Assembly: GCA_030699565.1 (NCBI GenBank)
Contig: JAUYLV010000042.1
Location: 1-33,251, forward strand
DNA from: a bacterium
Lineage (GTDB): Bacteria > Patescibacteriota > Minisyncoccia > JAUYLV01
DNA: 33,251 nt
Reading direction: 5' to 3'
Below are positions 5,017 to 30,217 of this stretch, one piece after another. How positions within the stretch are numbered: the first letter of the stretch is position 1; each line of letters opens with the position of its first letter. Both the position numbers and the translations under genes were made by a program. The notes under the pieces are model-generated. The model was not told the DNA's origin, ran no database searches, and saw only the letters and a list, made by a program, of their open reading frames with translations.

Positions 5017-5146
5017 ATTTTATGTCAACGTTTTGAGAGGTTCGAGCGTGAGAGAGACTAAAAGTCGGCTTTTTGTTGAGGGCTAAGAATCATGATAAAA
5101 TAATGAGAAGGCGGTAAAAGCTTATAACATTGTTTGGCGTTAATTT

Positions 5147-5272
5147 CAGTGAATTACGAAACGCTGTATTTGTGTCATTCCCGCAAAGGTGGGAATCTAT
5201 ATAAACCAAGATCATTCTGGATTCCCGCCTCCGCGGGAATGACAATCGGATGGGTTTTGTAATTCATTGTAA
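5147..5272. repeat. Palindromic GTCATTCC repeat R1 (simple form)
   Basis: Outer ends are GTCATTCCCGC (from 5174) and GCGGGAATGAC (to 5243), with a second internal inverted pair (GGGAATC / GGATTCCC). They are flanked by longer imperfect inverted ends, CAGTGAATTACGAAAC on the left and the complement of CAATGAATTACAAAAC on the right. It is a miniature, probably non-autonomous element of the widespread 'GTCATTCCCGCG' class. It lacks the 79-nt inner module found in R2-R4. A weak promoter (TTGTTG 5073, TAAAAT 5096) lies upstream, so the repeat may be transcribed into the leader of the next gene. Confidence 0.8.
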
Positions 5273-13747: not shown

Positions 13748-13783
13748 GATAATCTGGTAATAACATCATAGATAAAAAACAAT

Positions 13784-13813
13784 ATCCTCACATTCTCAAG
13801 TATGTTGGTATGT
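13784..13813. repeat. Palindromic element A of the helicase-nuclease cassette
   Basis: ATCCTCACAT, loop TCTCAAGT, ATGTTGGTATGT. The reverse complement shares the 16-nt core ACATACTTGAGAATGT with elements B (16605) and C (16936). Its two arms differ: one equals the C-type arm, the other is one base from the B-type arm, so A is a hybrid. It lies 225 nt before the helicase gene. Confidence 0.75.
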
Positions 13814-14037
13814 GCGAGGTCCGCTTCTTTGTAGTAGTCGGATTGGGGTCGGGGCTAGGCGTGGGGTTAATGTGCTTTATATTTACTTTAACAATATTTT
13901 ATATTTATTTTATCTGGTCCTGCTATGCTATAAAGTGAAAATTTTGACGATATGCGTTTCCATTGCTAACTTATACAGGCGGAGATTGCAATTTACTAAC
14001 ACGTGATCGCTTTTACTCCGTATAACATAATCGAGAT
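13814..14037 (+). promoter_or_regulatory. A/T-rich leader region of the helicase gene
   Basis: No convincing gene; a 64-codon frame from GTG 13812 has poor composition. Two candidate promoters are visible: TTGACG (13944-13949), 17 nt, TAACTT (13967-13972); and CATAAT (14026-14031), 6 nt before the helicase ATG. Confidence 0.45.
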
Positions 14038-15771
14038 ATGATCCAACAAGATGCACTTGATATTTTAAAGACCGGAGCGAGCGTTTTTTTGACCGGAGAA
14101 CCCGGCAGCGGCAAAACGCATACGGTTAACCTGTATGTCGCCTGGTTGCGCGAACGCGGCATAGCGCCCGCCATTACCGCATCCACCGGTATCGCGGCTA
14201 CGCATATCGGTGGCATGACGATCCACTCATGGAGCGGCATTGGTGTTCGAAAAGAACTTACCCAACGCGATATTCATGCGATTGCTGCAAATCGCCGCAT
14301 CGCAAAGCGTATTGAGGGCGCCCATGTACTTATTATTGACGAGGTATCAATGCTTGCTGCCGAAACCTTGTCGATGATCGAAGCCGTGTGCCGTCATATT
14401 CGGGGCAAGACCGTACCATTCGGGGGATTGCAGGTTGTTCTGGTTGGCGATTTTTTTCAGCTGCCGCCCGTTACGGTGAACCAAGTGCGCAACCGGCAGG
14501 ACTATGCGGCGCCTGCGCCCTCGCAAAGACAACCATCGGAAAGCGAACATTCAACTATTGCTTACGCATTCCGATCGCCTGCATGGGAGTCGATCGATCC
14601 GATCATTTGCTATCTATCCGAACAATACCGGCAAGAAGATAAGCTGTTTCTGGAGATATTGGCATCGATCCGGAGCGGCGAAATCACCGATCAAATACGC
14701 GAAGCGCTTCTGTCGCGTCAAGCAAAAGAATATCGCTCACTGGAAAATCTGCCAAAGTTGTATTCGCATAATTTTGATGTTGATCGGGTCAATGCCGAAC
14801 GGTTGGCAGCCATTCCGGGCAAAGAGATTATATTTGCCATGCAATATCGCGGGCCGGAGTCGTTCGTGGCAACGCTTAAACGCGGCTGTCTCTCGCCAGA
14901 AACACTTACGCTGAAAGTCGGCGCACGGGTGATGTTTACCAAAAACAGCCATTCCGGCGCTTATGTGAATGGCACCATCGGGGAGATCGAAGGATTCGAC
15001 GAAGAGGACTATCCTATTGTACGCACCAAAGGCGGTCGCCGCGTTGTCGCGGAACCCGAAGAATGGTCTATGGCGGATGGACCTCGTACGCTTGCCCGGA
15101 TTACGCAGATTCCCTTGCGGCTTGCCTGGGCGCTGACGATCCATAAAAGCCAGGGCATGACGCTGGAAGAGGCCGTTATGGATCTTTCCGGGGTGTTCGA
15201 ATATGGACAGGGCTATGTGGCGCTCTCTCGCGTCAAATCACTTGCCGGATTGCACTTGCTGGGGTTAAACGATCACGCGCTCCAAGTGGATCCTGCCATC
15301 ATTGTAAAGGATGCGGATTTTAAGCAATGCGCTGAAAAGGCGAGAGTGCGTCACCGCGCCATGTCTGAAGATGAACGGCAACGGCGCGCGCAAGATTTTA
15401 TCCATGCGTGTGGCGGCAGCATGCAAGGAAAACGCATTCGTACTGATATGCGAAAAAAGCCTCCGCGCGGCGCGACGCTTGAGGTAACGCTGGCGTTGTT
15501 CGCAAACAAGCATTCGGTGGCGCAAATAGCTCAGGAGCGGGGACTTGCAATTTCGACGATATTTTCACACCTCTCCAATCTCTATATGGCCGGACGCATT
15601 GAGCAAAAGGATTTGGAGCGCATGGTATCCCCCATACTGCAAAGAGCCCTTCCGGTCATTCATGCCGCATTCGGGGAGCTTGGCGCCGAACGTCTTGCGC
15701 CCATACATGAAAAATTTGGCGGTCGATATTCATATGAAGATTTGCGTCTTGCGCGCTTGCTTATGAAATAG
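14038..15771 (+). CDS. PIF1-like superfamily 1B helicase with C-terminal HTH
   Basis: 577 residues. Walker A GEPGSGKT (20-27), motif II LIIDEVSML (Asp101-Glu102), GDFFQLPPV (about 137-145), SEQYRQ, and the UvrD-C-like end LTIHKSQGMTLE followed by YVALSRVKS identify a RecD/PIF1-type 5'-3' DNA helicase. The last ~90 residues carry a helix-turn-helix of the RecQ/UvrD-associated HTH_40 type (SVAQIAQERGLAISTIFSHL). PIF1 helicases unwind DNA, G-quadruplexes and R-loops. The nuclease gene starts 10 nt after its stop, so the two are probably co-expressed and act together. No Shine-Dalgarno site. Confidence 0.92.
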   Translation: MIQQDALDILKTGASVFLTGEPGSGKTHTVNLYVAWLRERGIAPAITASTGIAATHIGGMTIHSWSGIGVRKELTQRDIHAIAANRRIAKRIEGAHVLIIDEVSMLAAETLSMIEAVCRHIRGKTVPFGGLQVVLVGDFFQLPPVTVNQVRNRQDYAAPAPSQRQPSESEHSTIAYAFRSPAWESIDPIICYLSEQYRQEDKLFLEILASIRSGEITDQIREALLSRQAKEYRSLENLPKLYSHNFDVDRVNAERLAAIPGKEIIFAMQYRGPESFVATLKRGCLSPETLTLKVGARVMFTKNSHSGAYVNGTIGEIEGFDEEDYPIVRTKGGRRVVAEPEEWSMADGPRTLARITQIPLRLAWALTIHKSQGMTLEEAVMDLSGVFEYGQGYVALSRVKSLAGLHLLGLNDHALQVDPAIIVKDADFKQCAEKARVRHRAMSEDERQRRAQDFIHACGGSMQGKRIRTDMRKKPPRGATLEVTLALFANKHSVAQIAQERGLAISTIFSHLSNLYMAGRIEQKDLERMVSPILQRALPVIHAAFGELGAERLAPIHEKFGGRYSYEDLRLARLLMK

Positions 15772-15781
15772 TTTCACGCAT

Positions 15782-16603
15782 ATGCATGACCGCGGCGAAG
15801 TGGACCGATATAGCGGGCGCTTAGAACCGCAACAGCGCCTAGATGCGGTTGTCTTGGTTGGTGTGCTGAAAAATAAAAAGGATCTTCGGCTGCTTTTGCG
15901 GAAGCGTTGGTATCGGATTCCTGCCGCATATATGCCAAAGCGGAAGTTCACTTATTTGGCGTTTTACCAACCGGCATCTTTTGGAAAATGCGGGAAGCGC
16001 ATCGAGCGCTATGCGCGCGTTACTGGCCGCAACGTAGTGAAACGCATACACCTTTTGCCGTTCGAGCCGGATCATCCGCGACGCGACGATATGTATATAA
16101 AGCTGGCGGTGACAAATATTAAAAAACTTTTCCGGCCTGTCAAAAACGTCATTCCGCGCCGGATCAACTTTGGTTTTACGACGCTTGGGCGGCTGTTATC
16201 GGCTAAGAATATATTGGAGCTCTACGGGGTGCCGGCTACGGAACAGATGATCGAGAAAAGCCTGAAATTCTACGGCATCCGCCCCCGACCGCAGTATCCC
16301 GTCATAAGCGGACGCAAAAGATATCGCATTGATCTTGCGATTGTGTGCAGGAAGGGGATTGTCGCCATCGAGTGTGATAATTATAAGGCGCATGCCGGCA
16401 GGGTGCATCGCTTGCAAGACCGTCAAAAGGATTTTCGGCTTAGGCGCTTGGGTTGGTTGGTATTGCGGCTTACGGAGAGAGATGTCATTGAAAGGCTTAA
16501 TCAAAGCATGGAACGGATCAAAAGCGCCGTACATGCCCTTGGCGGGCAGGCGAGGCGGCGCATGAGCGTGTCCGCGTCCTTTAAAGATATAATTTCCCGC
16601 TGA
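15782..16603 (+). CDS. DUF559-type nuclease with conserved N-terminal domain
   Basis: 273 residues. The C-terminal ~95 residues fit the DUF559/Vsr-like PD-(D/E)xK fold: RYRIDLAIV (metal Asp), GIVAIECDN (Glu-x-Asp), a His in YKAH, and RQKDFRLRRLGWLVLRLTE. Residues ~20-150 form another conserved unit (RKRWYRIPAAYMPK, YLAFYQPASFG, HLLPFEPDHPRR, RINFGFTTLGRLLSA). I recall the same two-part layout in uncharacterised proteins of cyanobacteria and Chloroflexi. It likely cuts or nicks DNA. It follows the helicase by 10 nt and ends just before palindrome B. Confidence 0.78.
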   Translation: MHDRGEVDRYSGRLEPQQRLDAVVLVGVLKNKKDLRLLLRKRWYRIPAAYMPKRKFTYLAFYQPASFGKCGKRIERYARVTGRNVVKRIHLLPFEPDHPRRDDMYIKLAVTNIKKLFRPVKNVIPRRINFGFTTLGRLLSAKNILELYGVPATEQMIEKSLKFYGIRPRPQYPVISGRKRYRIDLAIVCRKGIVAIECDNYKAHAGRVHRLQDRQKDFRLRRLGWLVLRLTERDVIERLNQSMERIKSAVHALGGQARRRMSVSASFKDIISR

Positions 16604-16604
16604 T

Positions 16605-16646
16605 ATCCTGACATACTTGAGAATGTTAGGATGTTCTAAATATTAT
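16605..16646 (+). promoter_or_regulatory. Palindromic element B over the regulator's promoter
   Basis: ATCCTGACAT (16605-16614), loop ACTTGAGA, ATGTTAGGAT (16623-16632): 10-bp arms, one mismatch. TTGAGA (16617-16622) in the loop can serve as -35, with TATTAT (16641-16646) 18 nt later and ATG 16652 5 nt beyond. This is the geometry of an autoregulatory operator. Confidence 0.7.
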
Positions 16647-16651
16647 CGCGC

Positions 16652-16939
16652 ATGACAGCATTAAAAACGGCAAAACAAATGGAGCGGCACCTGAAGGGTA
16701 TTGCAAATCACTATCGAATTGCAATGCTCCTGCTTATTGCCGAAAACGAAGGCGTCACGCTGGAAGACATTATTCAGCGGATGGGCGCAAATCAAAAAAC
16801 GCTTGGTGAACATTCAAGGCGACTGGTGAATGCGGGATTGATCGTTAAAAAATATCGCGGCAGATTTGTAGCGCATTCACTTTCGCTATACGGTAAAACG
16901 TTCGTTCAATTTTTGCAATTATTTAGGCGCAACGGATGA
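16652..16939 (+). CDS. ArsR-like winged-helix transcriptional regulator
   Basis: 95 residues. The layout ERHLKGIANHYRIAMLLLIA, a recognition helix around ANQKTLGEHSRRLVNAGL, and a wing (IVKKYRGRFVAHSLS) is that of ArsR/MarR-type winged helices; closely similar small regulators are common in Parcubacteria. No metal-binding Cys cluster is present, so the signal is unlikely to be a metal. The gene is bracketed by palindromes B and C, C overlapping its TGA, so it is the obvious candidate to bind them and control the cassette. Confidence 0.85.
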   Translation: MTALKTAKQMERHLKGIANHYRIAMLLLIAENEGVTLEDIIQRMGANQKTLGEHSRRLVNAGLIVKKYRGRFVAHSLSLYGKTFVQFLQLFRRNG

Positions 16940-16973
16940 CATACCAACATACTTGAGAATGTTGGTATGTCAT
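16936..16973. repeat. Perfect palindrome C at the end of the regulator gene
   Basis: Arms of 15 nt, ATGACATACCAACAT and its exact complement, around ACTTGAGA. It begins inside the regulator's last codons (stop TGA 16937-16939). It may be an operator for the next promoter (17002), a terminator-like hairpin (only four T follow), or both. Confidence 0.8.
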
Positions 16974-26740: not shown

Positions 26741-26930
26741 CTCTGAAAACTTTGTCATTCCGGGCTTGACCCGGAATCCATGGTTTATATCCGCCACTTT
26801 TTATTGGATTCCCCCCTGGGCAGCCATTTATTCACTCGAAACAGGGAAGCTGCCCGTGAAATGCAAAGACATTTGCATTTCACCCTCCGCGGGAATGACA
26901 CAAATACAGCGTTTTTTAATTCAATGTAAT
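26741..26930. repeat. Composite palindromic repeat R2
   Basis: Ends are CTCTGAAAACTTTGTCATTCC on the left and, on the right, GGGAATGACACAAATACAGC continuing to TTCAATGTAAT; the right end equals the left end of R1. It carries the 79-nt inner module (26806-26884) in inverted orientation relative to R3 and R4. Confidence 0.8.
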
Positions 26931-26942
26931 TAACGCATTCTT

Positions 26943-28243: not shown

Positions 28244-28422
28244 AACCTCTGAAAAACTAAGTTTTGTCATTCCCGCGAAGGGTGAAATGCAAATGTCTTT
28301 GCATTTCACGGGCAGCTTCCTTGTTTCGAGTGAATAAATGGCTGCCCAGGGGGGAATCCAGCAAAATAAGGCCTCATGGATTCCGGGTCACAAGCCCGGA
28401 ATGACAAAGTTTTTCAGAGGTT
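28244..28422. repeat. Composite palindromic repeat R3
   Basis: Terminal inverted repeat AACCTCTGAAAAACT...TTTGTCATTCC on both ends (left copy has a 4-nt AAGT insertion). The inner 79-nt module (28281-28359) has a 12-bp hairpin GTGAAATGCAAA / TTTGCATTTCAC and a GGGCAGC / GCTGCCC pair. It lies directly upstream of the small acidic gene. Confidence 0.85.
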
Positions 28423-30043: not shown

Positions 30044-30080
30044 AGTGGATTAGTCGTTTAGTGAACAATACTTATTTTCT

Positions 30081-30217
30081 GTCATCCCCGCGAAAGGTGA
30101 AATACAAATGTCTTTGCATTTCACGGGCAGCTTCCATGTTTCCAATGAATAAATGGCTGCCCAGGAGGGGATTCCTATATTGCAGATTTCAATAGATTCC
30201 CGCTTTCGCGGAATGAC
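30081..30217. repeat. Composite palindromic repeat R4
   Basis: GTCATCCCCGCG at the left, CGCGGAATGAC at the right, and an 80-nt inner module (30096-30175) in the same orientation as R3, with a few substitutions, one of which breaks a pair in the 12-bp hairpin. Confidence 0.8.

Follow-up and report, generated by a model that had tools for sequence, protein, structure and literature searches.

REP elements are short palindromes dispersed mostly at gene ends and sometimes within genes, with no target duplication, and in REPtrons they bracket a protein gene, that of the RAYT transposase (PMC3733652, PMC8266576); they carry a terminal GTAG or CGTC tag (PMC3733652). Rickettsia palindromic elements (RPE), of ~150 bp, are mobile palindromes that lie in frame within unrelated protein genes, one reading frame being preferred (PMC10969869). 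A third comparison is offered by the ArsR/SmtB and MarR autorepressors, proteins of winged-HTH (wHTH) fold with a palindromic operator over their own promoter. The patescibacterial palindromes described here resemble the REPs and REPtrons in dispersal, position, and bracketing of a protein gene, and the RPEs in their in-frame copies, favored frame, and presumed mobility. They differ from REPtrons in that the bracketed protein is a putative wHTH repressor rather than a RAYT transposase, and from REPs in their longer, nearly symmetric stem. From the RPEs they are set apart in being ~32 to 46 bp long, belonging to another phylum, and having two copies that bracket a gene for a DNA-binding protein. 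In contrast to the operators of the ArsR/SmtB and MarR autorepressors, the candidate operator is repeated after the HTH stop codon and dispersed. We found no paper in the literature on such elements in Patescibacteria. The reading that we favor, at a probability of roughly 0.6, is that an autoregulated, mobile palindrome-wHTH-palindrome unit of ~367 bp is widespread in Patescibacteria, and that a helicase and a nuclease are its recurrent, not obligatory, neighbors.

Genes and palindromes of the window

The window, a stretch of 33,251 nucleotides, is an entire contig (C9) of a 1.23-Mb genome (G000), and its open reading frames were called mechanically. An initial annotation had described a PIF1-like helicase, a DUF559-type nuclease with a second conserved domain, and an ArsR-like regulator lying in a row, the first two 10 nt apart, with related palindromes before the helicase, over the regulator promoter, and at the regulator stop. 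The gene order and motifs were confirmed, and all three palindromes are present above chance (Table 1).

Table 1. Features of the helicase-nuclease-regulator locus, in window positions
Feature	Positions	Strand	Basis or remark
Solo palindrome, imperfect, family member	13782-13813		Scores 35 against the motif; below -19 in the reversed window (control)
PIF1-like SF1B helicase with C-terminal HTH_40 domain	14038-15771	+	Domain matches; recurrent HTH-unit neighbor
PD-(D/E)xK nuclease, REase MTES_1575/DUF559 type, plus N-terminal domain	15782-16603	+	Domain matches; relatives in 8/286 genomes
Whole palindrome-HTH-palindrome unit	16603-16970	+	368 bp here; class mode 367 bp
Left palindrome of unit	16603-16634		-35 element of the HTH gene formed by core TTGAGA (16617-16622)
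-10 box TATTAT of HTH promoter	16641-16646	+	18-nt spacer from TTGAGA; class-wide pattern
95-aa wHTH (ArsR/MarR fold, cysteine-free), putative autorepressor predicted to bind the palindromes	16652-16939	+	Sequence, model, selection
Right palindrome of unit	16939-16970		Begins on last base of HTH stop codon

The helicase has the domain content of PIF1-like helicases with HTH_40 (PF05970, E 2e-31; C-terminal HTH_40, E 5e-19), and its PIF1 domain passed the curated cutoff (109.7 bits versus 25.9). The nuclease, whose ORF opens 10 nt past the helicase stop, matched MTES_1575 (E 4e-13; 49.6 bits against a cutoff of 38.2) and DUF559 (E 6e-5). Its predicted PD-(D/E)xK core comprises D184, E197-C-D199, and K202-A-H204, in which D184, E197, D199, K202, and H204 are invariant across five relatives. 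In domain content it is like other MTES_1575/DUF559 nucleases, to which it adds a separate N-terminal domain that is also conserved among relatives, and the second conserved domain of the initial annotation was thus borne out. The AlphaFold model of this N-terminal domain (window 15782 to 16240; mean pLDDT about 85 to 90 across most residues) weakly resembles ASCH, YTH, and McrB-N domains, so that the domain could read modified bases, a hint rather than evidence. A structure search with the nuclease model gave weak matches, none reaching an E value of 0.001 or better.

The regulator is ArsR-like in the sense of an ArsR/MarR-like wHTH fold: its AlphaFold model (pLDDT 89) has SmtB, CadC, SqrR, and MarR among the top structure matches, and its match to NCBIfam HTH_metalloreg (35 bits) lies under the cutoff of 55. 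As it contains no cysteine, it has no ArsR-type cysteine metal site. The named genomes with its best relatives are Patescibacteria MAGs. No close phage or plasmid relative of the HTH protein was found, and the HTH unit is carried by one IMG/VR contig only (L280/L339; IMGVR_UViG_3300025323_000435). A TspO gene on that contig has the palindrome in frame, and the contig may come from Patescibacteria and not from a virus.

The symmetric part of the palindrome measures 32 to 46 bp, and each arm contains two half-sites, ACATNC, 8 bp apart, giving four half-sites per palindrome. When the loci were scanned with a 32-position motif, 246 to 266 sites were found, against 0 in the reversed control, the matrix being derived from the same loci on which it was scored and the controls being zero. 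Within the window, no palindrome beyond the three exceeded the motif threshold. The first base of the left palindrome overlaps the nuclease stop codon. The solo palindrome does lie before the helicase, but at 225 bp 5' of its start codon a role as helicase operator is unsupported; this palindrome and the left palindrome of the unit may together bracket the helicase-nuclease pair. No known RNA family was matched. Other, unrelated inverted repeat families with a MITE-like appearance (TGTCATTCCCGC... and GTGAAATGCAAA...) were seen at window positions 26799 to 26936, 28262 to 28366, 30076 to 30172, and 5137 to 5244.

The palindromes are not private to this locus, as had been suggested. The same family occurs on five other contigs of this genome (C5, C10, C18, C21, and C72), and exact-pattern matches were found in 63 of the 286 genomes of the class, namely this genome and 62 others, with the reversed pattern giving 0 in the genomes listed. 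The palindromes occur genome-wide without the helicase or the nuclease, an outcome that the initial annotation had named as one that would count against its proposal.

The palindrome-HTH-palindrome unit and its promoter

A profile search detected strong HTH relatives in 65 of the 286 class genomes, and 370 relatives were present in named genomes. Palindromes stood on both sides of 100 of the 109 distinct Patescibacteria HTH genes examined, with a modal outer length of 367 bp; typically, the center of the left palindrome lies ~33 bp before the HTH start codon and that of the right one ~14 bp past the stop. Forty-five genomes have both palindrome and HTH (Fisher P 2e-22), and regulator and palindromes therefore travel together. 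In one genome, G074, four identical palindromes lie on four contigs, and the only HTH match there is a distant one (E 2e-14).

The left palindrome has the geometry of a promoter. A -10 box was present on its HTH side in 86% of cases versus 2% in a control window, mostly 4 to 6 bp beyond the palindrome end, and of 90 left palindromes, 60 have TTGAGx (TTGAGA/T) facing the HTH gene and 2 have TCAAGx, which reads in reverse. The inward consensus is TGTGTATAAT. As the HTH start codon (ATG at 16652) follows close behind the -10 box in the window, the mRNA should be leaderless. The right palindrome usually has no promoter (-10 box, 22% versus 20% in control). As RNA, it is predicted to form a strong hairpin (-23.1 kcal/mol with flanks; z, -7.1) with no T-run after it; a role as terminator was rejected, since a T-run follows in 7% versus 5% of controls.

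The initial annotation had called the regulator self-regulated, and a palindrome over the regulator promoter, with the -35 in its core, fits autoregulation. Promoter geometry and co-variation indicate that the HTH gene is very probably autorepressed via the left palindrome, its own promoter. The HTH protein would bind the four half-sites of this palindrome, two per arm with an 8-bp period, and when bound would block the leaderless promoter. Among all column pairs, the highest mutual information was between recognition-helix residue X of N-X-KT and half-site base -12: F or I at X goes with T at base -12 in all half-sites and E with C or A, a co-variation that is confounded by phylogeny. The dN/dS ratio between close units was about 0.05, and the HTH protein is therefore kept by purifying selection.

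Helicase and nuclease as neighbors of the unit

To the regulator and its palindromes the initial annotation had joined the helicase and the nuclease as one self-regulated DNA-processing system, possibly defensive. Helicase relatives were found in 96 of the 286 genomes, and in about 90 of these 96 neither partner lay nearby, absence being weak evidence in a comparison of MAGs. Among the 26 genomes with both a helicase and a strong HTH, the two were no more than 1 kb apart in six (G000, G063, G107, G175, G185, and G257); the chance P value of about 3e-8 comes from a simple positional model, with position rows matched by eye and with G063 and G107 belonging to one genus. L084, L124, and L149 are additional cases in named genomes. 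Nuclease relatives are rarer (8 of 286 genomes) and adjoin an HTH or helicase gene in six. Its neighbor is a strong HTH unit both in G000 and in the genus of G201 and G285, and an ArsR-like gene in G228; named genomes have the nuclease beside HTH units at L101, L123, L086, and L104, the last two being G201 and G285, and a nuclease-only first search of named genomes gave no matches.

Helicase and nuclease adjoin in three of the four genomes that have both. In one (G218, L319) the helicase precedes the nuclease as in the window, and in another (G265, L320) nuclease, helicase, and an ArsR-like gene lie in a row; this is the one genome besides G000 with all three genes together, and its ArsR-like regulator is a different one. 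Gene order and orientation vary among the loci. The helicase-nuclease association is therefore genuine though rare, and each gene tends to lie in neighborhoods that contain an HTH. A conserved three-gene cassette as a fixed unit was rejected, as the nuclease is confined to those eight genomes and the helicase is mostly alone.

The non-random adjacency, together with the trio in G265, the shared order in G218, and the weak resemblance of the modeled nuclease N-domain to modified-base readers, speaks for the one-system proposal, which nevertheless appears improbable to us: the palindromes and the HTH gene mostly occur without either gene. Nothing supports a defense role. PADLOC assigned no system to the window genes and gave generic domain-level matches only, and the neighbors at these loci are mostly housekeeping genes, such as those for ObgE and TypA/BipA, with no defense-island context.

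Other recurrent neighbors of the HTH unit encode TspO, an MGMT-like DNA-binding domain protein, and a membrane-wHTH protein. Palindrome-separated gene arrays of the form PAL-gene-PAL-HTH-PAL-gene-PAL, reminiscent of cassette arrays, were seen at L210 (G070:C7), L211 (G201:C9), and L326 (G175:C31), and contain SNase, NYN, TspO, PIF1, and proteins of no known kind. A partner gene of ~113 aa also recurs beside HTH units (L228:5895-6236; also L048, L210, L211, and L220); with an N-terminal hydrophobic segment and a C-terminal HTH_11, its product is possibly a membrane-tethered regulator.

Boundaries, solo copies, and dispersal

Conservation falls sharply 4 to 6 bp outside the palindromes. No common flank was found in 719 of 754 unit pairs (at least 72% identity, both flanks available), although many of the 754 pairs join distant genomes, where flanks would differ anyway; exceptions such as L086/L104 are vertical copies within one genus. 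Congeneric genomes have the unit at different loci. When the congeneric genomes G205 and G082 were compared by blastn, the match at two loci of G205 reached from one palindrome to the other, and the flanks are unrelated; in a search of G082 for the empty sites of G205 loci, homology was too patchy, and no exact or strain-level empty site was found. From these boundaries and this dispersal, rather than from observed movement, we infer that the unit is mobile. The recurrence of TspO, helicase, and nuclease as neighbors is not predicted by random insertion and counts against this reading.

Solo palindromes often lie at gene ends, 17 between convergent genes and 2 between divergent genes. Where a gene starts within 150 bp, a -10 box follows the palindrome in 38% of cases versus 15% in control windows. 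Among the 18 intragenic copies in long ORFs, 14 use one reading frame, which reads [K/Q]H(T/P/S)N(I/K)LENV(G/R)M and is favored partly because other frames contain stops. In the MnmA of this genome, the solo palindrome is a 15-codon in-frame insert, and in the MnmA of L120 it occupies a different site, with 14 net codons. Clean net insertion everywhere was rejected, because in TspO (five genomes) and in an L215 membrane protein the palindrome lies in a variable-length loop. The MnmA of this genome (L004, G000:C5) has other odd stretches (SNFQFPNKQ..., WSMKHRKKM...) that are absent from solved homologues and are perhaps other repeat insertions.

Could the palindromes instead be operators, fixed in place, of a repressor that is conserved in Patescibacteria, with the helicase, nuclease, TspO, MGMT-like, and further genes as the targets of an ordinary global regulon? 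Because the TspO, MGMT-like, and membrane-wHTH neighbors recur, we keep this alternative in view, and the spread of recurrent neighbors across lineages (TspO about nine times, the nuclease at about four independent loci, and the helicase as counted above) favors it, as does the -10 box excess at solo sites. It fits poorly with the preponderance of convergent over divergent sites, with a right palindrome that is fixed after the HTH stop yet has no promoter, and with sites in frame within proteins, and we regard it as unlikely.

No excess of flanking direct repeats that would mark a target-site duplication was found around the units, which distinguishes them from MITEs, and no transposase or RAYT was linked to the palindromes. 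The lack of both suggests hairpin- or recombination-mediated spread by host enzymes. A REP/RAYT-type process, with a tyrosine (HuH) transposase elsewhere moving the palindromes and the HTH gene trapped between two copies, would likewise agree with the missing duplication, and the palindromes are like REPs in size, in their bias to 3' ends, and in having intragenic copies. Y1 transposases were present in 13 of 20 sampled palindrome genomes, but also in 9 of 20 palindrome-free ones; they are absent from this genome, G001, G201, and G265, and the palindrome was absent from all Y1 loci fetched. Neither a GTAG nor a CGTC tag occurs in the motif or its flanks. The elements are thus short and dispersed as in REPtrons, but lack the tag and a repeat-flanked RAYT (Y1) gene, and membership was rejected; movement by such a transposase seems to us improbable.

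In the mobile-unit reading, the palindrome that serves the HTH gene would spread as solo copies into gene ends and protein loops, by hairpin or recombination with host enzymes, and some copies would turn into promoters of the next gene. A more tentative extension, against which we would still bet, is a replicator that needs no transposase: the operator palindrome of the repressor would itself be the mobile DNA, and operator-repressor-operator the minimal selfish unit, copied by host enzymes via hairpins or recombination. If so, host genes would fall under repressor control, or host proteins would gain peptides, during spread.

How short palindromes such as the CGTC-type REPs and the RPEs spread without a dedicated transposase is an open question in the field. 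Here, a palindrome family is paired with a conserved DNA-binding protein that is under purifying selection and whose gene lies between two palindrome copies, all in reduced genomes, for which additional DNA is a burden, and the unit offers a concrete protein-DNA pair for testing. The palindromes also add to the ways in which conserved Patescibacteria proteins acquire peptides in frame, and their motif can be used to annotate regulation in a phylum for which regulatory data are very scarce.
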